In this document: positions 20,407-33,484 of the stretch, piece after piece
Numbering within the stretch: position 1 is the first letter of the stretch
Layout: every line of letters starts with the position of its first letter
From: a virus
Reading direction: 5' to 3' (one strand)
Length of the DNA stretch: 36,915 bases
IMG/VR virus record: IMGVR_UViG_3300038619_000274
Location: 1-36,915 of that record
Translations under genes and position numbers: made by a program
The notes under the pieces: generated by a model
What the model was told of the DNA's origin: nothing
Databases searched by the model: none
Seen by the model: only the letters and a program-made list of their open reading frames with translations

Positions 20407-22818
20407 ATGGCAAGTCCCCCAGCTCCCGACGATTGGGTCGTGCCGGAGCAAACAAACGCGGCCGCGGCGCCGGCGGACGATTGGGTCGTGCCGAAAGGCT
20501 CGATGCTGGAACGCGCGCACGCGGCGATCGAGGATAGTTCGGTCGGACGCGTGCAGCGCGCGGTGCTCGAGGGCGAGAAGCAAGGCTTCGGCTCCGAGCC
20601 GCTCGGCATTGTCGGCGGCTCGCCGACCGATCAGGCATTGACCAGGCTCGGCATCTTTCATGAGCCGGGCAAGGGTTATGTCGGGCCGCAGGGCACGGTG
20701 CAGCTCCTCGACGAAGCGATATTGCGCCCAAGTGCCGTAGCGGCCGACGCGTTCTTTCGCGCATTGAGCGCGGCGGGCAGCGGCGTCGCCGCCGGCGCCG
20801 GACAAGTGGCGCGCGAATTCGGCCAGAGCGAGCCGCAAGTCCGCAAGCTTACCGGCGACATCCAGACCGGCGAAGAACTCGCCGTGATGTCGCACATACC
20901 TGAGGCGGGCCTACTGGAATCGGGCCGCACTGTCGGCGCGCCGGCCTTCGAGAAAGTCCAAGCCTCGCCCGAGCAGATCGAGGATTTTCTCGCGCAGGCG
21001 GCGCGAGCACCGAACGCACCGACACCGCCGCCGTCAAAGACGCGGCAGGACATCGACGAATTCCTGCGCCAGCGCGAAGCGCGCGAGCAAGGGCAAGCCG
21101 CGCCGGCCGGCACGCCGCAACTGCCGCCGCCGGACGATTGGACGGTGCCGGCGGAGCAGGCCGCACCGGCGCCGCAACCGGCCGCGCCTTCAGGCGGTGC
21201 GCTCGACACGTTGTTCCCCTCACTCGATGAACCAGGCCGCGCGTCACCGCCGCCGGCGCAAGAGGTTGCCGATGATCGTCAAAACGGGGTCGGGCTACCA
21301 GGTGAAGTCGGAGCACGGCAAGAACCTGTCCAAAGCCAATCTGTCGAAGGGCCAAGCGGAGCGCCGGCTGGAGCAGGTGGAATACTTCAAGCACGCGCAC
21401 AAGAAGGGGCACCAGCGCCCGCAAACCAGACTTCAACATCAGCGGTAGGACCGCACACGCTGAAAGCGCTGCTCGACGATCCGCGCTCCGCCGACGAGAT
21501 CAGCGCGATCGCCGCGGCCGAGCATGGTGTCAGCGATGCGGTCGAAGCGCACGCGATCGCCGATGCGTCGTCACCAACCAATCAAATGGTTGTTGACAAC
21601 CAAACGGGGGTTAACCCCCAACCTGCCGTCGAGGACTGGCAAGCGGGCGTCGAAGCTGCAGCGCCGGCCGGCACCCGCGATGATCCAGTCGCGCTGTACG
21701 CGCCTACCGACGTGCACGCCGGCGCCGAGATCACCGCAACGCCGACACAAGGCCAGGCCGAAGCCGGCAATTACCGCAAGCGCCATGTCGAATGGCAGGG
21801 GCTGGATCTCACCGTCGAGACCGAAGCGGGCGCCGCGCGCACCGGCACCGGGCCCGGGGGCGTGCCTTGGTCGGTCACGCTGCAGAACCCCTACGGTTAC
21901 ATCAAGGGCACAAAAGGCCGCGACGGCGAGCAAATCGACGCCTATCTCGGCCCCGAACCGGCCTCCCCGCATGTCTTTGTCGTCGATCAGATCAATCCGG
22001 ATAGCGGCCGATTCGACGAGCACAAGGCGCTGATCGGCTTCGCGGACGAGCAAAGCGCCATTGCCGGCTATGTAGCGGGCTTTTCGGACGGCAGCGGCCA
22101 AGGCCGCCTGGGCGCCATTACGGCGCTCACCGTTGAGGGCTTTAAGGACTGGCTGTCGAAGGGCGTCCGGCGCAACCCCACCGCATACAGCGACCCTGTA
22201 CGCGCGATAGAGGGCGCGGCAAACGAAGCCGGGATGAACCTCACGGACGCCGAGGCGGAAGCCGCGGCTCACGCGAAAAAGGTCAGCAATGCTGACCCAA
22301 CCGAAGCATTACTCACCGTCGTCGATCATCAAGGGCTTGCGGCGGTCGACGGTGCGATAGAGACTGCCAAGACGGAAGGACTCACTGATGCCTGGACTGC
22401 TCACGGCGCGACAGAGAGTGAGGCTGGCGCAGGAATTGCGCCGGCGGGCGAACGGCCAGCCGAACCTGAAAGCGCGGGAGCGGAAGGAATTTCGCCGGCG
22501 AGCGTCGAACCTCATGGCGGCGAACAAGCTGGAAGCGCAGGCGAGCCGAGCGTAGCATCAAAGCCGGCCGCGCCCGTACCCGAGCCGGAAGCCGCGCCCG
22601 TCACGCGTGACGAAGCGCCGGCGGAGCCGAAAATCGTCGAGGCTGTCACCGTCGCCTATCTCAAAGACGTGACGAAGCGCGTGCCGTCTATGGGTGCTGG
22701 CGACAGGACGCGCGCCCGCGAGTTCATCGACACGATGTTGTCCAACATGGACAGCAACGGCAAGAAGCTCGCCGAGCATTGCGTCGAGACCGGCGGCAAG
22801 TTCTCGCTGCGCGGCTAA
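20407..22818 (+). CDS. Polyvalent protein with pyrophosphatase-like domain
   Basis: An 803-residue multi-domain protein, probably packaged and injected with DNA. The motif DDWVVP occurs at residues 8-13 and 24-29, with DDWTVP at 243-248. Residues about 454-585 resemble the inorganic-pyrophosphatase-like domain of phage polyvalent proteins: YGYIKGTKGRDGEQIDAYLG contains a D-G-E-x-I-D signature close to that of soluble pyrophosphatases, followed by HVFVVDQINP and DEHKALIGF. A small C-terminal domain ends with GGKFSLRG. Two stretches linking the domains (about 289-347 and 661-716) are low-complexity and overlap two nested genes in another frame. Substrate and activity are unknown. Confidence 0.75.
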   Translation: MASPPAPDDWVVPEQTNAAAAPADDWVVPKGSMLERAHAAIEDSSVGRVQRAVLEGEKQGFGSEPLGIVGGSPTDQALTRLGIFHEPGKGYVGPQGTVQLLDEAILRPSAVAADAFFRALSAAGSGVAAGAGQVAREFGQSEPQVRKLTGDIQTGEELAVMSHIPEAGLLESGRTVGAPAFEKVQASPEQIEDFLAQAARAPNAPTPPPSKTRQDIDEFLRQREAREQGQAAPAGTPQLPPPDDWTVPAEQAAPAPQPAAPSGGALDTLFPSLDEPGRASPPPAQEVADDRQNGVGLPGEVGARQEPVQSQSVEGPSGAPAGAGGILQARAQEGAPAPANQTSTSAVGPHTLKALLDDPRSADEISAIAAAEHGVSDAVEAHAIADASSPTNQMVVDNQTGVNPQPAVEDWQAGVEAAAPAGTRDDPVALYAPTDVHAGAEITATPTQGQAEAGNYRKRHVEWQGLDLTVETEAGAARTGTGPGGVPWSVTLQNPYGYIKGTKGRDGEQIDAYLGPEPASPHVFVVDQINPDSGRFDEHKALIGFADEQSAIAGYVAGFSDGSGQGRLGAITALTVEGFKDWLSKGVRRNPTAYSDPVRAIEGAANEAGMNLTDAEAEAAAHAKKVSNADPTEALLTVVDHQGLAAVDGAIETAKTEGLTDAWTAHGATESEAGAGIAPAGERPAEPESAGAEGISPASVEPHGGEQAGSAGEPSVASKPAAPVPEPEAAPVTRDEAPAEPKIVEAVTVAYLKDVTKRVPSMGAGDRTRAREFIDTMLSNMDSNGKKLAEHCVETGGKFSLRG
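21272..21448 (+). CDS. Nested small basic phage protein
   Basis: A 58-residue protein wholly inside the polyvalent gene, in the +1 frame. AGAGG at 21261-21265 sits 6 bases before the ATG. The sequence (YQVKSEHGKNLSKANLSKGQ, then AERRLEQVEYFKHAHKKG) resembles a widespread family of small Lys-rich phage proteins with a GKNL ... A..RL.QVE.FKH pattern. Third codon positions are almost all G or C until the last eight codons, as in real genes here, whereas the enclosing frame is locally poor in GC at third positions. Function unknown; a nucleic-acid-binding role is possible from charge. Confidence 0.75.
   Translation: MIVKTGSGYQVKSEHGKNLSKANLSKGQAERRLEQVEYFKHAHKKGHQRPQTRLQHQR
21588..21619. repeat. 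Two adjacent palindromes inside the polyvalent gene
   Basis: GGTTGTTGACAACC (6-bp arms around TG) is followed four bases later by GGGGGTTAACCCCC, a perfect 14-bp palindrome. The stretch is locally A/T-rich within GC-rich coding DNA. It may be a protein-binding site or a remnant of a former intergenic region. Confidence 0.5.
22388..22555 (+). CDS. Nested small Arg-rich protein
   Basis: A 55-residue protein wholly inside the polyvalent gene, in the +1 frame, starting 7 bases after GGAAGGA. It is strongly helical and basic (ARQRVRLAQELRRRANGQ, LKARERKEFRRRASNLMAANK) and resembles small DNA- or RNA-binding phage proteins, but no family is assigned. Third codon positions are strongly GC-biased in this frame, while the enclosing frame is mixed and gives low-complexity Ala/Gly/Glu/Pro sequence. 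It sits exactly at the junction between the pyrophosphatase-like domain and the C-terminal domain. Confidence 0.65.
   Translation: MPGLLTARQRVRLAQELRRRANGQPNLKARERKEFRRRASNLMAANKLEAQASRA
22600..22611. repeat. Repeated palindrome, copy 4
   Basis: GTCACGCGTGAC in the C-terminal part of the polyvalent gene, encoding Val-Thr-Arg-Asp at residues 732-735, 44 bases after the nested gene stop. Confidence 0.85.
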
Positions 22819-23547: not shown

Positions 23548-24804
23548 ATGACCAATTATCGAAGCAAAACCTGCTGCGTCGTCGATAACGGCCTGTTTCT
23601 CGAAGTGGCGATCACGCTCGCCAAGGACTTCGGCAAGGTCCTCTATTACATGCCGTGGCAGTCCGGCTATCCGACGTCGAACGTGCTGCTCGTAGGCCAC
23701 GGTATTCCCGGCGTCACGCGCATCGACAGCTTTTGGCCGCTGCTCGACGAGATTGACCTGTTCGTGTTCCCCGACGTGTACGAGGGTCCGCTGCAGGAGC
23801 ATCTTGCGAGCCTCGGCAAGCGGGTGTGGGGCAGCCGCAACGGCGACCAGCTTGAGCTATTCCGCGCCGACAGCAAGAAACACATGAAGTCGCTTGGCAT
23901 CGACATTGGGCCGTGGAAACTCATCAAGGGCATCGACAAGCTGCGCGAACACCTTGAAAAGCACGACGATCAATGGGTGAAGATTTCGCGCACGCGCGGC
24001 GACTTCGAGACCTTCCACGCGGAAAACTACGACCTGGTGAAGCCCAAGATCGACGAGCTGGAGCACCAGCTCGGCGCCAAGGGCGAGATCATGGAATTCA
24101 TCGTCGAGGAAGGCATCCCCGACGCGGTGGAGATCGCCTACGACGGCTTCACCATCGACGGCAAGTTTGCCAAGAACGCGACGTTCGGCATCGAGGTCAA
24201 AGACAAGGGCCTGGTGACGAAGACCACCAAATACGACGCCCTGCCCGAGCAACTGCGCACGGTCAACGACAAGCTCAAAGGCACGCTGGCCGAATTCCGC
24301 TATCGCAACTTCCTCGCGGTCGAAATGCGGATCACCAAAGACGGCACGCCTTACGTGATTGATCCGTGCTGTCGCGCCGGCTCGCCGCCGTCCGAATTGC
24401 TGCTCGAACTGATCTGTAATTGGGCGGACATCATGTGGGAAGGCGCCGAGGGCACCGTGGTCGAGCCGGTGTTTCAGGCGAAGTGGGGCGCCGAGCTGCT
24501 GCTCATCTCCGATTGGGGCGACACCCACTGGCAACCGCTGCAATTCCCGAAGTCGATCCGCGAGCAAGTCAAGCTGCGCTACGCCGCTGTCATCGACGGC
24601 ACCTATTACGTCGTGCCGCAGGCCTCCGCGCATCCCGAGATCGGCGCCGTTGTCGCCACCGGCGACACGATGGACGCCGCGATCAAGGAAGTCTGCGCGA
24701 TCGCCGAGAAGGTGAAGGGCTTTTACGTCGAGGTCGTGCCCGAGTGCCTCGATGAAGCGCAGGAGCAATTCGACAAGCTGCGCGAGTTCGGGATTAAGGT
24801 TTAG
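23548..24804 (+). CDS. ATP-grasp ligase-like protein
   Basis: A 418-residue protein with an ATP-grasp profile. An N-terminal pre-grasp domain (about 1-110, with KTCCVVDNGLFLEVAITLAKDFG) is followed by a lid-like region (WVKISRTRGDFETFH, GEIMEFIVEEGIPDAVEIAYDGF), a metal/ATP-binding segment (FLAVEMRITKDGTPYVIDPCCRAG) and a C-terminal domain (EIGAVVATGDTMDAAIKEVCAIAE) resembling the end of PurD-type glycinamide ribonucleotide synthetases. Such enzymes ligate a carboxylate to an amine with ATP. It starts two bases after the SpeD-like gene and probably acts with it, but no substrate can be named. Its TAG overlaps the stop of the minus-strand gene as TTAG. Confidence 0.65.
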   Translation: MTNYRSKTCCVVDNGLFLEVAITLAKDFGKVLYYMPWQSGYPTSNVLLVGHGIPGVTRIDSFWPLLDEIDLFVFPDVYEGPLQEHLASLGKRVWGSRNGDQLELFRADSKKHMKSLGIDIGPWKLIKGIDKLREHLEKHDDQWVKISRTRGDFETFHAENYDLVKPKIDELEHQLGAKGEIMEFIVEEGIPDAVEIAYDGFTIDGKFAKNATFGIEVKDKGLVTKTTKYDALPEQLRTVNDKLKGTLAEFRYRNFLAVEMRITKDGTPYVIDPCCRAGSPPSELLLELICNWADIMWEGAEGTVVEPVFQAKWGAELLLISDWGDTHWQPLQFPKSIREQVKLRYAAVIDGTYYVVPQASAHPEIGAVVATGDTMDAAIKEVCAIAEKVKGFYVEVVPECLDEAQEQFDKLREFGIKV

Positions 24805-25327: not shown

Positions 25328-28300
25328 ATGATCCGCTGTCCCAACTTCCGCTCCGATAAGGCGCGGGATGACTTCAATGCTGTGCTGGCGCGGCTCGGCG
25401 GCGTAGCCATGTCCGCCGACGACATCTCGCCGCGGCAACCCTATCTCGCGCGCCTCAACGAAAAGCAAACGCAGGCTTATCACGTCGCGCACTATTTATG
25501 GAACGCGCACAAGACGCCGGCGGAGATCGGGGCTTTCCTCGATGCACTCGACCAGGTGAGGGATGCGCTGGAGGCAGAGCCGGCGCCGACACCCGCAAAA
25601 ACGCTGGCACCAGCGCAAAAAGCGGAGAACGAAACGGGACGGCCTCCTTCTGTTCCGGGTGACGTAGCGTCAACCGAAGCCGCCCCGCTGTCGAACCTGC
25701 CGGCGATCAATCTGGCGCGGGATCTGCTCGAACGGCTGCGCGCCGGCAAGCCGATCTCGACCAAGATCATGCAGCAGATGGCGGCCGAGATTTATGGCGC
25801 CAAGCTGTCCGAGGGGCATTTCGACCGCAAGGACATGCAGGACGCGCTTGAGCTTGCGGTGAACATGCGGATTGCCGAAGACGCCGCATTGCGCACCGAT
25901 AAGGGCGAGTGGCGCGAGCCGATGGCGAAGCTCGACGAGCTTTTGTCGAAGCTGCCGACACAGCGGGTGCGCTCCGAGGAACAAGAGAGCTTCCAGCAAT
26001 TCTCGACGCCACCGACCTATAGCGCTGCCGCGGCCTATGCCGCGAACCTGCGCGATGGCGACGTCGTGCTTGAGCCTTCGGCCGGCACCGGCTCGCTGGT
26101 CGCGGCGACCTCAAAGCCGGGCGTGAAAATTATCGCCAACGAATTGTCCGAGCGGCGCACCGCGCTGCTGCGCGCGCTGATCGGCGACCGGATTTTTCAC
26201 GAGAACGCCGAGCAGCTCAACAACACGCTGCCCGACAGCGTGAAGCCTTCCATCGTGGTGATGAACCCGCCGTTTTCGCAGACCGCCGGCCGCATGGGCG
26301 ACAAGAAGGTGCCGATGACCGGCGCCATCCACGTCGAGCAAGGCTTAAAGCGCCTCGAACCGGGTGGGCGCCTGGTGGCGATCGTCGGCCGCGGCATGAC
26401 CATGGGGGCGCCGGTCTATCGCGCCTGGTGGTCGAAGATTGGCAAGGAATACACCGTCCGCGCCAATATCGGCGTCGACGGCAAGGTGTTCGAGAAATAC
26501 GGCACCACTTTCGGCACTCGTTTACTCGTCATAGATAAGGTGAAGCCGACCGGCGAAGCGCCGGTTTTGGCAGACGCGCAGACGGTCGATGACCTGATGC
26601 GCGCATTGGAGCCGATCCGAAATGCCCGGACTGCCGCAGAACAACATGGTGCTCAATCGGCTGGCGCTGAATTGGCTGAAGCAAGCCAAGACGCCGGGGG
26701 TGCCCCATTATCTGAACCTGCTGCTGCTGGCGGAGTGGGGCCTGGAGAACGGGGCATCGGGGGGCTGGCCGGAGAAGGAGCGACCAGCACTGCGGGATCA
26801 GGTGAACCTGATGTTCGGGTGGAAGCCGGCGAACACGCTGGCGTGGCTGCTGTCGAACCCGGAAGCGGGCGACCGAGCGGAGCAACAGGACAATCTCCTG
26901 AAGTTGCTGGAGGCCGTGGACAACCCGAAGGACGCGGCGGCGCACGTCCTCAACGCAATCTGGGACCGGCTGGTGGCGACGACGCCGCAGCTACAGCCCG
27001 CAGCGAGCGAGTTGAGCTAGAGCACGCCGAGCCTGGTTCGCAGGGCGCAGCGGAAATTTCCGACAGCCTCTACGATCAGTACCGCCCGCAGCGCGTCAAA
27101 GTGCCGGGCGCCAAGCCGCATCCGTCAAAGCTCGTCGAATCCGCGGCGATGGCATCCGTGCCGCCGCCGGCGCCGACGTACAAGCCGAGCCTGCCGCGCG
27201 CGGTGATCGAGAAGGGCTTGCTCTCCGACGCGCAGATCGAACCCGTCATCTATGCCGGCGAGGCGCACGCCAAGATGTTGCCGGCGGCGGAAGGCGAGCC
27301 GGCGAGGCGCAAGGGCTTTTTCATCGGCGACGGCACCGGCGTCGGCAAAGGCCGCGAGGTCGCCGGCATCATCCTCGATAACTGGAACCAGGGGCGCACC
27401 AAGGCCGTGTGGGTGTCGGAGAAGCGAAAGCTGCTCACCGACGCCAAGCGCGACTGGAAGGGGCTGCAACAAAACCCCGATCACCTTTTCGACGTGGGCA
27501 AGGTCAAGACCGGCGAGCCGATCGACGCCAAGAAGGGCATCGCGTTTGTTACCTACGACACGCTCAAGGGCGGCATGTCGGATCAAGCGGCGCTCTCCCG
27601 CGGCGGTTTCGTGCGCAAGCAGTCCGTCTCGGTCAACGGCCAGCCTGGCTTGGTGCAATCGGTCGGCAAAGTCGCGCGCGGCAAACCGGCGCAGATCACC
27701 GTCAAGCTCGAAAACGGCACCACCGTCACCGTGCCGGCGAAAGAAGTGAAGGCGGAGGAAAAGGCCGCGGTCAAATCGCGCATCGACCAGCTCGCCGATT
27801 GGTTCGGCAAGGACTTCGACGGCGTGATTGCTTTCGATGAAGCCCACAACATGGGCAACGCCACCGACACCAAGGGCGACCGCGGACAGAAAGACGCGGC
27901 GATGAAGGCAATCGCCGGCATGGACCTGCAGAAGCGGCTCCCCAACGCCCGCATTGTCTATGTCTCCGCCACCGGCGCCACCGAGGTTTCCAATCTCGCT
28001 TATGCCGATCGGCTCGGGCTGTGGGGCAGGGGCACGCCGTTTGCCTCGCGCGCCGCGTTCGTCTCGCAAGTCACCGAAGGCGGCATCGCGGCGATGGAGC
28101 TCATCGCCCGCGACATGAAGCAGCTCGGCCTCTACACCGCGCGCAATCTCTCCTATGACGGCGTTGAATACGATCGCGTCGAGCACAAGCTCGATGCCAA
28201 CCAGCGCGAGATTTACGACACGTTGGCGCAAGCCTGGCAGGTGGTGCTGCGCGACATCAACGCGGCGCTCAAGCTCACCGGCGGCAACTTCGACAGCCGC

Positions 28301-31300
28301 GCGAAGTCCGCCGCCATGTCGGCGTTTTGGGGCGGCCATCAGCGGTTTTTCAATCAGATCATCACCTCGATGCAGATGCCGTCCGTCGTCAAGGCGGTCG
28401 AGCAGGATCTCGCGGCCGGCCGGCAGGTGGTGCTGCAACTCACCAACACCAACGAGGCGTCGCAGGAGCGCGCCGCGGCGAAAGCGCAGACCGCCGAGGA
28501 CATCGAGGACCTCGACATCACGCCGCGCGACCAGATCATCCAGCTCGTCGAAAACTCGTTCCCGACGCAGGAATATGAAACCTACGTCGACGACGACGGC
28601 AAGGAGCGCTCGCGCCCGGTGGTCGATAGCAACGGCAATGCGGTGCAGAACAAGGAAGCCGTCGCCATGCGCGAGCGGCTGATCGACCAGTTGGCTTCGG
28701 TGCGCGTGCCGCAGGGACCGCTCGACCTGGTGCTCGATCACTTTGGCGTCGATACGGTCGCCGAAGTCACCGGCCGCGGGCGCCGTTTTGTGCTCAAGCC
28801 CGACGAGAAAACCGGGCAGAAGCGCCGCGTCGAGGAAAGCCGGCCGGGCTCGGCCAACCAGGCGGAGACCGACGCCTTCCAGGAGGGCAAGAAGAAAGTC
28901 CTGATCTTCTCGGAAGCCGGCGGCACTGGCGCGTCTTACCATGCCGACAATACCGCGGCCTCGAAGGACGCGCGGCGCTCGCACTACCTGGTGCAAGGCG
29001 GCTGGCGCGCCGACAAGGCGGTGCAGGGCTTTGGCCGTACCCACCGCAGCAACCAGGCGTCGGCGCCAATCTTCCGGCTGGTGACGACGGACCTGCAGGG
29101 GCAGAAGCGGTTTATCTCCTCGATCGCGCGCCGGCTCGGGCAGCTCGGCGCGCTCACCAAGGGCGAACGCAAAGCCGGCGACCAAGGCATCTTCTCGGCC
29201 CGCGACAATCTCGAAAGCACCGAGGCGCGCACCGCGCTCACACAGTTTTTCCGGGACATCTACAACAACGCCGTTCCCGGCATCGACATCAACGACTTCG
29301 AGGAACAGACCGGCCTGAAGCTGCGCAACAAGGACGAGGAAGGCCGCAGCATGGGGATGCTGGAGGACTTGCCGCCGATCACGCAATTCCTCAACCGGCT
29401 ATTGTCGCTCAAGTTCGACCTGCAGAACACCACGTTCAACTCGTTCTCGGAACGGCTCGACGCGGTGATCGAGGCGCGGCGCGAGGCCGGCCTGCTCGAT
29501 GTGGGCCTGGAAACCGTCAAGGCCGACAAGATCGCCAAGGAGACCGAGCAGACCGTGCATACGGTCGAAGGCTCGGGCGCGCAGACAAAATACGTCAAGC
29601 TGAAATTGTCAGACAAGTTCAAGGCCACCGACTTCGATACCGTGGCCTCGAACGAATGGCGCAAGGTGACGGCCTGGCTCGAAAGCCCGAACGGCAAAGT
29701 GTACGCCGCGGCCGAGGCGCCGAGCCTCACGGACGCCAGCACCGGCCGCATCATCGACAGCTATCGCCTTGTCAGTCCGGTGTCGGATTCGCGCACCATC
29801 AACAAGGAGAACGTCGAGAAGCCCGATACCAAGTGGAAGAAGATCGAAAAGAGCGAAGCCTCCGCGCTGTGGCGCAAGGAGATCGCCGCCGCGCCTGAGT
29901 ATGTCACGCGTGACATGCACCTGATTACCGGTGCGATCCTGCCGATCTGGGATCGGCTCAAAGGCAACCCCCGCGTGGTACGGCTTGCGACCGAGGCCGG
30001 CGAGCGGCTGATCGGGCGCGTTGTGCCAAACGACGCGATCGCCGCCACGCTTAAAGCTCTCGGCGCCGAAGCAAAGGCACAGAGCTACACGGCCGCGGAC
30101 GTGTTCCTGAAGGTGCGCGCCGGCGGCCGCGCTACGCTGGCAAACGGCTGGACCTTGAGCCGGCGCCTGGTCGCCGGCGAGCACCGCATCGAATTGACCG
30201 GCCCGAGCGCATTTTCCGAAGCGCAGGAGGTCAAGAAAGACGGCGTGTTCACCGAGCGCATCGACTATAAGACGCGGTTTTTCGTGCCGACCGACGCCGA
30301 AGCAGGCTCTCGCGTCATCGAGCGCCTCACCCAATACCGGCCGGTGACGGACCTGGTGGAGCGCGGCGCCGCACCCCACGACATGGCCGCCGGCGACGAG
30401 CCGATGTTCTCGGTGAAGGGCGACGATCGTGTTAAGGGCGAAAGCGACGCACTCGCGGAAGCGGTCGCGCGGCGTCTTTTGCCGGCGTTGCGCGCCGAGC
30501 TTGACCGGATGGGCCTCTCGGACATTCCGCTCAATCTGCCCGGCACGCTGACGGCGCGCATCGGCGCCAAAAAGTACGAACTCAACGGCTATTACTTCCG
30601 CCAAGCGATCACGATTGCGCTCAATGCCGAAGACATCGGGCGAACCTTGCACCATGAGGCGCTGCACGCGCTTCACGATCTCGGGGTGTTCAAAGACACC
30701 GAATGGCAAATCCTGACGCGGCAATCCGACCGCGCCTGGCGCAAGCAATTCCGCATCGAGGAGGGTTACGCGCATCTGGCTGATGAGCTGCGCACCGAGG
30801 AAGGTATCGCCCACGCCTACGCCGCCTGGGCAAAAGGCGAGATGAAAGTGGACGGTCGGATCGCCCGGCTGTTCAAGCGCATCCGCGACTTCTTCGAAGC
30901 GTTGCGCAACGCGCTGCGCGGGCTTGGCTTCAAAAGCGCCGAGGACGTGTTCCGCAACATCAAAGAAGGCGAGATCGGGAACCGAGCACGCGCCGGCGCC
31001 GGCGACGAGCCGATGTTCGAGATGCGCCGGGACAATGCGCCGGCGGAAGCTCGCGCCACGCCGAACCTCAACCGCCGCATCCGCGACCGCATCGAAGCGG
31101 CGCTCGACAGCAAGTTCGGCCGCAAATTCATCGAGGGGACGCAAGACCTCTCGCACCCGGTCAAGCTCTTGCAGGACGAGCTTGAAATGCGCCGGGAAGG
31201 CGCCTTCGAGGACCCGGAGGACTTCTACACCCGCAAGCGCCTTTATCCCGGCCGCGTCGGCGCCTGGACCGACACCTTCAACAAGAAGCATCTCGATCCG

Positions 31301-33484
31301 ATCGTGCGGCTGTTGAAGGCCAACAATATTCCGCTAGCCGACGCCGGCGACTTCCTCTACGCGCTGCACGCCGCCGAGCGCAACGAGGCCATGGACAGGA
31401 TCAATCCCGGCCTTGGCGGCGAAGGCTCGGGCATGTCGAACGAGGAAGCCGCCAAGATCATCGCCGAAGTCAAGCGCGGCGAGCACGCCGCCGCCTTCGA
31501 CGAGCTGCGCGAGAAAGTCGGCAAAATCCGCGACCTGATCCTCAACGTGATGGAGAAGTCCGGGCTAGAAAAGCCCGAGGTCATCGCCGAATGGAAGAAA
31601 CGCTACGAGGACTATGTTCCGCTGCGCGGGTGGGAAGTGGAGCCGGACGATGCGCCGCCGGAATTTCGCGGACCTGGCGCTGGCTTCAATGTCCGCGGCA
31701 AAGAGGTCAAGCAGGCGCTTGGCCGCCGCTCGAAGGCCGACAACCCGATCGTCAACCTGTTTGACCAGGCGTATCGCACCTTCGATCGCGCCGAGCGGAA
31801 CCGTTACCTGCAATCGCTCTACCGCGCGATTGATGATCTCGGCGACGAGGCGTCCGACGTCGCCACGCTCGATCGCGGCAAGCCGCAGCGCACCATAGAC
31901 AAGCGCACCGGCCTGGTCAAAACCGTGGAGAATTCCGGCCAGTATATGAACCCGAAGGCGGTCTATCTTAAATTCGACGGCAATCCGCACTTCATGGTGT
32001 TTGCCGATCAGGAGCTTGCCGAAGCGGTCAAGCGCATGAGCGCGGACAGCGTAGGCATCTTTCACGCCTATCTGAAGCTGCAGAACAAGATGAAGGCGCT
32101 ATGGACGCATTACAGCCCCGACTTCTTGTTCCGGCATTTCATGTTCCGCTACCCGATCGAGGGCGCGCTCAACTCGTTCGAGCAAAAGGAGGGCGGCGAG
32201 CATAAGGTCAATCAGTATATCCGCGACGCCTTCCCGTTCGTCGGCAGGGCCAGCAAAGCTATCTTTGCTTCCAACAAGGGGATCGTTCACGACGATCCAG
32301 CAATCCGGGAAATGCAGGAGGTATGGGATAAAGTCCGGCGCGGCGGCGGGGCGATGATGTTTCGCAACATGCGCGACATCGACCTCACCCGCGAGCACCT
32401 GCAGACCGCGCTCAAGGACTTGTCCGATCGGCCGCTCGCCAACGCGCGCGCCAAGTGGCGGCACGGCATCGAGGCGTTGGATACAATCACCAATGCGCTC
32501 GACAACTCGCTCCGGCTAGCTGCGGCATATTCTGCGATCAAGCAAGGCAAGACCGTGCAGCAGGCGGCGCTGATCGCGCGCGAGGCCACGGTTGATTTCC
32601 AGCTCAAGGGCCGCTGGAACAACCTCATGGGCATCTTCTTTCCGTTCTCCAACGTCGCCATCCAGACCACCGCGCGGATGACCAAGGCGGTTTATCGCTC
32701 GCGCATCATGCGGCGCGTGTTCGGCTCGACGCTGCTCGCGGGCTTCCTCGTGTCGGCGTTCAATTATCTCGTCGCCGGCGACGACAAGGACAGCATCCCG
32801 TTCTTCGACAAAATCCCGGAGTGGGACCGGCGGCTCAACTTCATCATCCTCAACCCGTTCGATACCGACGACAAAGGCCCGCAGCCGATCAAGATACCGA
32901 TGCCGTACAATTGGGCGTTCCCGCTCGTGCTCGGCTACGCCTTCGGCGGCATGATGTTCGGCAAGGAAGGACCAAAAAAACTGATGACCATGCTGGCACG
33001 CTCGGCAATGGAGACCTTCACCCCGCTCGGCTCGGAACAGAACCTCGCCGGCATAGCGACGCCGGAAGCCTTCCGGCCGCTCGTTCACATCTACACCAAC
33101 GAGGATTGGGCCGGGCGCCCGATCCACGTCGACCCCGATTTCCAGAAACGCCCGAACGCCTATTCGCCGAGGAAAACCACCGGCGCCGGCTGGTCGGCGA
33201 TCGCCAAGGGCGTCAATACCGCGACCGGCGGCTCACCAGGCAAGTCCGGCGTGCTCGACCTCTACCCCGAAGATTACCGGGAAATGATCGACCAGTTCGC
33301 CGGCACGCAAATCCGGCTCGGACAGAACATTTGGGACACCGGCGAATCGGTAGCCGAAGGCAAATGGCCGCAAGCGACGAAAATCCCGCTCGAACGCGTC
33401 ATCCGCGGCACCGACTATGACGCCGCCGATCGCGCGCGCGGCGATGAAGCACGCGATCGACAAAAGCATCCGTGGAAGCACTGA
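25328..33484 (+). CDS. Giant DarB-like polyvalent protein (methyltransferase-helicase-protease)
   Basis: A 2718-residue protein, probably injected with DNA to block host restriction, as P1 DarB does. Domains in order: N-terminal region; adenine N6-methyltransferase (about 220-420) with LEPSAGTGSL and NPPF near 313-316; low-complexity linker (about 435-580); SF2 helicase of the strawberry-notch type (about 580-1300) with Walker A GDGTGVGKG (from 667), DEAH (837-840), SATG (about 879) and QGFGRTHR (1233-1240). A zincin follows with HEALH at 1776-1780, then helical regions and an LPD38-like C-terminus with hydrophobic helix GSTLLAGFLVSAFNYLV and the motif DLYPEDY. DEPMF motifs occur before and after the zincin. 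There is no good ribosome site at the ATG; MSADDIS at 25412 is an alternative start. The linker contains a nested gene. Confidence 0.85.
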   Translation: MIRCPNFRSDKARDDFNAVLARLGGVAMSADDISPRQPYLARLNEKQTQAYHVAHYLWNAHKTPAEIGAFLDALDQVRDALEAEPAPTPAKTLAPAQKAENETGRPPSVPGDVASTEAAPLSNLPAINLARDLLERLRAGKPISTKIMQQMAAEIYGAKLSEGHFDRKDMQDALELAVNMRIAEDAALRTDKGEWREPMAKLDELLSKLPTQRVRSEEQESFQQFSTPPTYSAAAAYAANLRDGDVVLEPSAGTGSLVAATSKPGVKIIANELSERRTALLRALIGDRIFHENAEQLNNTLPDSVKPSIVVMNPPFSQTAGRMGDKKVPMTGAIHVEQGLKRLEPGGRLVAIVGRGMTMGAPVYRAWWSKIGKEYTVRANIGVDGKVFEKYGTTFGTRLLVIDKVKPTGEAPVLADAQTVDDLMRALEPIRNARTAAEQHGAQSAGAELAEASQDAGGAPLSEPAAAGGVGPGERGIGGLAGEGATSTAGSGEPDVRVEAGEHAGVAAVEPGSGRPSGATGQSPEVAGGRGQPEGRGGARPQRNLGPAGGDDAAATARSERVELEHAEPGSQGAAEISDSLYDQYRPQRVKVPGAKPHPSKLVESAAMASVPPPAPTYKPSLPRAVIEKGLLSDAQIEPVIYAGEAHAKMLPAAEGEPARRKGFFIGDGTGVGKGREVAGIILDNWNQGRTKAVWVSEKRKLLTDAKRDWKGLQQNPDHLFDVGKVKTGEPIDAKKGIAFVTYDTLKGGMSDQAALSRGGFVRKQSVSVNGQPGLVQSVGKVARGKPAQITVKLENGTTVTVPAKEVKAEEKAAVKSRIDQLADWFGKDFDGVIAFDEAHNMGNATDTKGDRGQKDAAMKAIAGMDLQKRLPNARIVYVSATGATEVSNLAYADRLGLWGRGTPFASRAAFVSQVTEGGIAAMELIARDMKQLGLYTARNLSYDGVEYDRVEHKLDANQREIYDTLAQAWQVVLRDINAALKLTGGNFDSRAKSAAMSAFWGGHQRFFNQIITSMQMPSVVKAVEQDLAAGRQVVLQLTNTNEASQERAAAKAQTAEDIEDLDITPRDQIIQLVENSFPTQEYETYVDDDGKERSRPVVDSNGNAVQNKEAVAMRERLIDQLASVRVPQGPLDLVLDHFGVDTVAEVTGRGRRFVLKPDEKTGQKRRVEESRPGSANQAETDAFQEGKKKVLIFSEAGGTGASYHADNTAASKDARRSHYLVQGGWRADKAVQGFGRTHRSNQASAPIFRLVTTDLQGQKRFISSIARRLGQLGALTKGERKAGDQGIFSARDNLESTEARTALTQFFRDIYNNAVPGIDINDFEEQTGLKLRNKDEEGRSMGMLEDLPPITQFLNRLLSLKFDLQNTTFNSFSERLDAVIEARREAGLLDVGLETVKADKIAKETEQTVHTVEGSGAQTKYVKLKLSDKFKATDFDTVASNEWRKVTAWLESPNGKVYAAAEAPSLTDASTGRIIDSYRLVSPVSDSRTINKENVEKPDTKWKKIEKSEASALWRKEIAAAPEYVTRDMHLITGAILPIWDRLKGNPRVVRLATEAGERLIGRVVPNDAIAATLKALGAEAKAQSYTAADVFLKVRAGGRATLANGWTLSRRLVAGEHRIELTGPSAFSEAQEVKKDGVFTERIDYKTRFFVPTDAEAGSRVIERLTQYRPVTDLVERGAAPHDMAAGDEPMFSVKGDDRVKGESDALAEAVARRLLPALRAELDRMGLSDIPLNLPGTLTARIGAKKYELNGYYFRQAITIALNAEDIGRTLHHEALHALHDLGVFKDTEWQILTRQSDRAWRKQFRIEEGYAHLADELRTEEGIAHAYAAWAKGEMKVDGRIARLFKRIRDFFEALRNALRGLGFKSAEDVFRNIKEGEIGNRARAGAGDEPMFEMRRDNAPAEARATPNLNRRIRDRIEAALDSKFGRKFIEGTQDLSHPVKLLQDELEMRREGAFEDPEDFYTRKRLYPGRVGAWTDTFNKKHLDPIVRLLKANNIPLADAGDFLYALHAAERNEAMDRINPGLGGEGSGMSNEEAAKIIAEVKRGEHAAAFDELREKVGKIRDLILNVMEKSGLEKPEVIAEWKKRYEDYVPLRGWEVEPDDAPPEFRGPGAGFNVRGKEVKQALGRRSKADNPIVNLFDQAYRTFDRAERNRYLQSLYRAIDDLGDEASDVATLDRGKPQRTIDKRTGLVKTVENSGQYMNPKAVYLKFDGNPHFMVFADQELAEAVKRMSADSVGIFHAYLKLQNKMKALWTHYSPDFLFRHFMFRYPIEGALNSFEQKEGGEHKVNQYIRDAFPFVGRASKAIFASNKGIVHDDPAIREMQEVWDKVRRGGGAMMFRNMRDIDLTREHLQTALKDLSDRPLANARAKWRHGIEALDTITNALDNSLRLAAAYSAIKQGKTVQQAALIAREATVDFQLKGRWNNLMGIFFPFSNVAIQTTARMTKAVYRSRIMRRVFGSTLLAGFLVSAFNYLVAGDDKDSIPFFDKIPEWDRRLNFIILNPFDTDDKGPQPIKIPMPYNWAFPLVLGYAFGGMMFGKEGPKKLMTMLARSAMETFTPLGSEQNLAGIATPEAFRPLVHIYTNEDWAGRPIHVDPDFQKRPNAYSPRKTTGAGWSAIAKGVNTATGGSPGKSGVLDLYPEDYREMIDQFAGTQIRLGQNIWDTGESVAEGKWPQATKIPLERVIRGTDYDAADRARGDEARDRQKHPWKH
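26622..27020 (+). CDS. Nested 132-residue protein inside the giant polyvalent gene
   Basis: An open frame in the +1 frame of the giant gene, lying exactly on the linker between the methyltransferase and helicase domains. Composition is that of a globular helical protein (LNRLALNWLKQAKTPGVP, YLNLLLLAEWGLENG, VNLMFGWKPANTLAWLLSNP, LLKLLEAVDNPKDAAAH). Third codon positions are nearly all G or C in this frame, while the giant frame here has many A/T third positions and encodes Ala/Gly/Glu-rich sequence. GGAG at 26608-26611 is ten bases from the ATG, a weak site; the ATG at 26646 is an alternative. No family recognised; function unknown. Confidence 0.7.
   Translation: MPGLPQNNMVLNRLALNWLKQAKTPGVPHYLNLLLLAEWGLENGASGGWPEKERPALRDQVNLMFGWKPANTLAWLLSNPEAGDRAEQQDNLLKLLEAVDNPKDAAAHVLNAIWDRLVATTPQLQPAASELS
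29903..29914. repeat. Repeated palindrome, copy 5
   Basis: GTCACGCGTGAC within the giant polyvalent gene, encoding Val-Thr-Arg-Asp. Flanking bases extend it to ATGTCACGCGTGACAT, a 16-bp perfect palindrome. Confidence 0.85.

Follow-up and report, generated by a model that had tools for sequence, protein, structure and literature searches.

The window analyzed here, meaning the whole stretch of DNA under study, is a 36,915-base IMG/VR virus record. On its plus strand, an open reading frame (ORF) encoding 803 amino acids (aa) contains a second ORF in the +1 frame. The following features were delineated at this locus.

20407-22818, plus strand: enclosing gene of the phage polyvalent type, 803 aa, with low-complexity linkers around an InPase domain; a homologue is present in L002
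21260-21265, plus strand: AAGAGG, a Shine-Dalgarno (SD)-like sequence ending 6 nt before the nested ATG, recognized from the sequence
21271-21447, plus strand: the nested DNA as read in the enclosing frame, residues 289-347, a Gly/Pro/Gln/Glu-rich linker
21272-21448, plus strand: nested gene, 58 aa, supported by homologues and an AlphaFold2 model
21751-22155, plus strand: InPase domain (PF18823), enclosing residues 449-583, E=1.7e-46

The translation of 21272-21448 (+), the +1 frame within the 803-aa ORF at 20407-22818, is MIVKTGSGYQVKSEHGKNLSKANLSKGQAERRLEQVEYFKHAHKKGHQRPQTRLQHQR, followed by a stop codon. Its residues 1-41 form a conserved core, and a basic tail makes up the C terminus. In the 803-aa protein, InPase was the only domain recognized; the polyvalent type is characterized by several different effector domains in one polypeptide.

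An ORF within a GC-rich, low-complexity linker might be a chance shadow, and many shadow ORFs are present in the window. When the nested gene was recoded synonymously, the enclosing frame stayed open, so that both frames were open, in about 18% of cases (P=0.18). In this GC-rich genome, the window alone is therefore no proof of dual coding, and the proof is supplied by its relatives. Among the relatives found, L002 is the closest; its nested protein is 72% identical and lies at the homologous place in a 964-aa enclosing homologue, the two enclosing proteins being 53% identical. At the nested site, up to 32 residues per 41-codon window are identical in the nested frame, far above the same frame elsewhere in the alignment (mean, 17.9; maximum, 24; 320 gapless windows), and outside this site the nested frame never outscores the enclosing frame. 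The codon-position pattern of the linker zone is also reversed relative to that of the flanks. Moreover, homologues reach 79% identity over 43 columns and include free-standing genes (L003, L005, and many more). The chance shadow is already refuted by these homologues, and we assign it a negligible probability. The initial annotation had considered a shadow very unlikely and is upheld in this respect; the confident free-standing homologues that it had proposed to search for were found, the window protein itself having no match better than E=0.1 in Pfam or PHROGs. The opposite outcome that it had envisaged, a frame lacking homologues with only the enclosing frame conserved, was not observed: homologues exist, and substitutions in the zone follow the nested frame. 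Comparative sequence evidence thus confirms 21272-21448 as a real gene, and we hold it to be almost certainly dual-coded as well.

We define the EYFKH small-protein family from an alignment (A5), as no database name was found for it. The family consensus is MIxKTxxGYxVxSExGKNLSxPxLSKxxAxKRLxQVEYFKH, with the motifs M-I start, GYxV, S13, KNL, AxxRL, and QVEYFKH over about 43 residues. M1, V11, R32, and E37 are invariant in 84 alignment rows, and the window protein has every family motif. Searches with a four-row alignment (A1) gave 364 viral-contig relatives (the best 80 of 364 were taken) and 39 relatives in genome contigs, and a second alignment (A6) gave 490 relatives (the best 80 of 490 taken). 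When 50,697 phage records were searched with two members as queries, matches at E<=0.01 were limited to Aeromonas phage 1233 and Vibrio phages PGA and PGB; by this search, the family is nearly absent from cultured phages. The free-standing 43-codon copy of Aeromonas phage 1233 (L005, 5001-5132) is unannotated, and the 10-kb stretch shown has one annotated gene. Distant members form the N terminus of an Escherichia phage Bas80 protein (profile E=6.5e-11) and, as an in-frame fusion, the C terminus of the Vibrio phage PGA portal protein (profile E=8.5e-11), while in L090 the small domain sits in frame within a longer protein. The family therefore takes the forms of free-standing genes, in-frame domains, and nested genes. 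It was also seen in MAG contigs (L086-L124) of Omnitrophota, Acidobacteria, Micrarchaeota, and CPR bacteria.

The AlphaFold2 model predicts two strands and one helix, with an average pLDDT of >90 over residues 1-40. Pfam has no model for the family, the family profile had no match at E<=1 among PDB sequences, and Foldseek found none at E<=0.001 in the PDB. In BFVD, the best Foldseek hit had an E value of 0.019, and both fused and free viral members were matched; proteins named prohead protease and XkdF appeared lower in the list, names that serve as a lead only. For 86 members, weak Pfam matches were to SPOR, DUF2188, and DUF6316; the Pfam search gave no match to DUF1508 at E<=0.1, and no nuclease family was among the Pfam and PHROG matches. 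PDB entries 3bid and 2k7i, which we take to be YegP/UPF0339 (DUF1508) small proteins, have a similar strand-helix arrangement with weak VIA-align Z scores (3.8 and 2.1, respectively), but there is no sequence match and we do not claim membership.

The arrangement in the window recurs widely. We examined 124 viral loci, namely, the window and the relatives closest to the queries, a set in which the nested fraction is no census and from which L004 (a near-copy of L003), L005 (an annotated phage), and repeat fetches of the same contigs were left out. A copy was considered nested if the enclosing frame was open for at least 100 codons on each side of it. By this definition, 61 of the 124 loci were nested, in enclosing ORFs of about 800 to 2,700 codons; 56 had a stop in the enclosing-type (+2) frame within the small gene, and 7 were open but uncounted (L049, L063, L064, L070, L073, L157, and L159). 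Seven loci (L128, L129, L135, L136, and L139-L141) came from searches able to match the enclosing-frame peptide, which favor nesting; without them, 54 of 117 were nested. Only 1 of 39 genome-contig loci (L087) was nested. The small stand-alone phage protein proposed in the initial annotation is thus half of the picture: 56 of the 124 viral loci are of the free-standing type, but nested copies make up about half of the viral relatives examined. In the 54 of the 61 nested loci with <50% G+C, such long ORFs cannot be due to chance. All 61 nested copies share one relative frame, which the M-I start explains: an Ile codon (AT.) directly after the ATG creates a TGA in the alternative forward frame.

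Nucleotide differences between related loci carry the signature of both readings. At enclosing codon positions 1/2/3, the window and L002 differ at 11/8/7 sites in the nested zone versus 166/170/288 in the flanks, and the contrast was sharper in other pairs, with counts of 11/3/0 versus 117/96/322 for L033 and L017 and 11/3/2 versus 180/121/312 for L010 and L014 (14 pairs passed the filters, drawn from the window-L002 pair plus every pairwise combination of 15 loci). Within the zone, substitutions track the nested frame; in the flanks, they track the enclosing one. We also recoded 28 nested loci having an enclosing ORF of >700 codons synonymously by exact sampling. The probability that the enclosing frame would be open was <=0.037 in 26 of the 28, the others being the window (0.18) and L002 (0.13). 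Non-nested copies in AT-rich genomes were never open in the +2 frame (0 of 45; 0.31 expected). Over all non-nested copies, 14 of 91 were open versus 3.9 expected, all 14 in genomes with >=55% G+C, an excess that points either to ambiguity in some GC-rich cases or to a crude codon model.

Codon usage points in the same direction. In the two low-GC bins, nested copies had means of 1.8 and 0.4 T-ending codons per 43, versus 12.8 and 8.4 for non-nested copies. Third positions were 2.2% T and 50% G in 54 nested AT-rich loci, versus 25% T and 24% G in 29 free AT-rich loci; the enclosing first codon position outside the nested zone was 15.5% T and 37% G. The near-lack of T-ending codons in nested AT-rich copies keeps the enclosing frame open, and T avoidance exceeds stop avoidance in most loci, related loci not being independent. 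Read in the enclosing frame, the nested zone is nearly devoid of Cys, Trp, His, Met, and Phe. As far as sequences can tell, both frames are under constraint.

How the nested frame might be translated was assessed from its start region. In the window, start-site scoring gave a 5-nt SD match at 21260-21265. An alternative GTG at 21197 would yield an 83-residue version of the nested protein, unlike the family members, which begin at the position of the nested ATG. All 50 distinct nested starts were ATG or GTG (47 and 3, respectively). Compared with control ATGs (those elsewhere in the same ORFs and frame, unmatched for local composition), nested leaders were richer in A (fraction of 0.53 versus 0.33, p=8.5e-10) and less folded (-5.2 versus -10.8 kcal/mol, p=1.8e-14). 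An SD match of >=4 nt was found at 9 of 50 nested starts, 25 of 41 free starts, and 12 of 43 first ATGs of enclosing genes. The start features fit internal initiation, in which the small protein would be made from its own ATG on the mRNA of the giant gene, by way of an SD-like site in the phage type of the window and of A-rich, unstructured leaders in most AT-rich relatives. The stable fold at the nested start of the window (-20.9 kcal/mol) and the small number of nested starts with such an SD match (9 of 50) count against it. The same data bear on +1 frameshifting of the giant mRNA, by which a shortened giant would acquire the small domain as a tail without a start of its own. Such a product would resemble the C-terminal fusion on the portal protein and the domain inside the longer protein of L090, a fixed frame relation would suit it, and the nested frame of the window is open for 128 codons upstream. 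However, every distinct nested start is ATG or GTG, the fixed frame is already accounted for by the M-I start, and in many loci (e.g., L035, L057, L023, and L080) a nested-frame stop lies 1 to 7 codons upstream, so that a slip site would hardly fit. We therefore regard frameshifting as improbable.

The enclosing genes are mosaics, and the nested copies lie at differing places in them. The flanks of the 61 nested copies fell into 25 left and 29 right families in 35 combinations, and the whole enclosing ORFs formed one chained mosaic group of 55 plus six singletons (a left-flank alignment, A7, was too diverged and was left out of the results). Nested sites differ between homologous giant genes and are often at module junctions. 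In L019, one left module stops at the nested gene, whereas in L032 it runs on for 130 residues without the gene. Another module lies directly behind the nested gene in 5 of 13 loci examined (L203, L205, L206, L208, and L210), is farther from it in other loci, and is ahead of it in L216. The record of L132 has a homologous giant-gene module and no copy of the small gene in 50.9 kb; in place of the nested-gene linker, that module has an unrelated Q/E-rich linker.

The L132 module bears on the proposal in the initial annotation that the linker is the derived, overprinted sequence. The enclosing protein has this linker where the small gene is, the module lacking the gene has an unrelated one, and substitutions in nested zones avoid nested positions 1 and 2, all of which favor the proposal. 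For the window itself, searches with the enclosing N terminus gave only the L002 contig, and no homologue of the enclosing protein that lacks the nested gene and could serve as an empty site was found by them; a derived linker in this particular phage would be an extrapolation from other lineages.

Each record tested had a single copy of the family, whether nested (34 of 34) or free (16 of 16), although records may be incomplete. The resolution of the family tree is poor, 50 of its 95 inner branches being open. Placing the nested state on it takes 13 changes (12 to 14 in bootstraps), of which at least 3 are forced by well-supported branches. The 'GGPY' branch is all free on the tree, and L177, found later, is a nested 'GGPY'-type member. 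These observations suggest repeated origins of the nested state, through relocation of a gene that elsewhere resides in or near the head/packaging module, with only the observed frame able to stay open, given the M-I start. The direction would presumably be from free to nested, the poor resolution of the tree counting against certainty here, and of the two overlapping genes in this recurrent arrangement the nested one is probably the older.

The breaks between modules also raise the possibility that the stretch is kept mainly as DNA, a homology anchor for swapping giant-gene modules, with coding being secondary. Between related giants, 33 of 86 alignment breaks start between -12 and +40 aa from the nested 3' end, versus 5.4 predicted from length, and a module that directly follows the nested gene in some loci follows other modules elsewhere. 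However, the break pairs are not independent and were picked by left-flank homology, conservation is at the amino-acid level (changes fall at nested position 3), and it extends to free copies outside giant genes. An anchor as the main role is thus unlikely, and a dual-coded stretch is preferred.

Genomic contexts provided clues to function. For 15 of 24 listed free-standing loci, neighbors (20 proteins in all) were compared with PHROGs. The free copy adjoins or is near genes for the terminase large subunit, portal, or major capsid protein in 10 of the 15 (L011, L021, L022, L040, L044, L048, L049, L066, L083, and L085). It adjoins a glycosyltransferase gene in L036, and the tested neighbors of L012, L031, L059, and L061 had no PHROG match. 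Several copies in bacterial and archaeal MAGs have cellular neighbors, such as Ku, LemA, histone deacetylase (HDAC), and ribonucleotide reductase. The small protein may work in the head or in the packaging/ejection assembly near the portal and, when nested, would be made together with the giant; this is the weakest step, and we offer it tentatively, as somewhat less likely than other roles taken together.

The enclosing giants have 37 cysteines in 111,871 residues (0.33 per 1,000), versus 258 in 46,518 residues (5.55 per 1,000) in other long ORFs of the same loci. Near-absence of cysteine has been noted for injected N4-like virion RNA polymerases (PMC3915230). By analogy, the nearly cysteine-free giants are presumably packaged in the virion and ejected with the DNA, which would explain why the off-frame reading is kept stop-free and nearly without Cys and aromatic residues. 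Near-absence of cysteine is a possible sequence signature of ejected proteins. Elsewhere in the window, a 2,718-aa ORF at 25328-33484 (+) has a single cysteine and matches phrog_14770, a group of giant phage proteins without an assigned function (E=9.9e-98); it is probably a second ejected giant protein. A 418-aa ORF at 23548-24804 (+), between the enclosing gene and the 2,718-aa ORF, has no PHROG match.

No published description of a nested small gene in phage giants was found in the open-license PMC literature. The closest arrangement found there is ShiLan, an out-of-frame HNH endonuclease domain inserted in a phage DNA methylase (PMC11855218). In both cases, an out-of-frame gene lies within an insertion that does not close the host frame, the host protein has an extra loop, and the manner of translation start is unsettled (PMC11855218). 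The present case differs from ShiLan in its tiny protein without a nuclease (a core of about 43 residues), its many host proteins and sites, its additional free-standing genes and in-frame domains, and its clear dual-frame constraint. A selfish, homing-type insertion like ShiLan, in which the small protein serves its own spread, would agree with this likeness and with the varied insertion sites and unbroken host frame, but a protein of about 43 residues without a nuclease match, one copy per record, and free copies beside head genes or cellular genes make homing an unlikely explanation as well.

Two other systems share features with the dual-coded stretch. Like the embedded lysis genes of single-stranded RNA phages, which are described as de novo evolved, it places a small protein inside a larger phage gene; here, however, a wide family is nested and the enclosing reading looks newer (PMC7693330). 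With polyvalent proteins, it shares enclosing proteins with InPase or ART-PolyVal domains and mosaic architectures; fusions of InPase to portal domains are also described, and packaging and injection of these versions are considered likely (PMC5512222). The terms "overlapping gene," "frameshift," and "linker" do not occur in that paper (PMC5512222).

Taken as a whole, the data are very probably best explained by a dual-coded stretch with a small gene repeatedly relocated in polyvalent-type giants. The +1 frame would encode a small basic protein of two strands plus a helix, and the main frame would provide a large polyvalent-type phage protein with a flexible linker that joins its modules. A broader model is about evenly balanced in our estimation: a portable overlapping gene, single copy and from the head module, would have moved many times into giant cysteine-poor ejected proteins, inserting only in the frame that the M-I start permits; its off-frame reading would become an interdomain linker and its 3' edge a junction for module swaps, and nesting would link synthesis of the small protein to synthesis of the ejected giant.

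The usual view of nested phage genes is that they arise de novo, as overprints within an older gene. In the present case, an old gene family is apparently the guest and a giant gene the host, many times over and at unrelated sites. The arrangement extends further than the initial annotation stated, as nesting recurs in giant genes of other uncultured phages. Gene callers tend to drop nested ORFs, so a conserved single-copy phage gene may be missed by them; the free-standing copy in Aeromonas phage 1233 is unannotated, too. The codon-level record of both frames makes the origin, persistence, and movement of overlapping genes directly testable.
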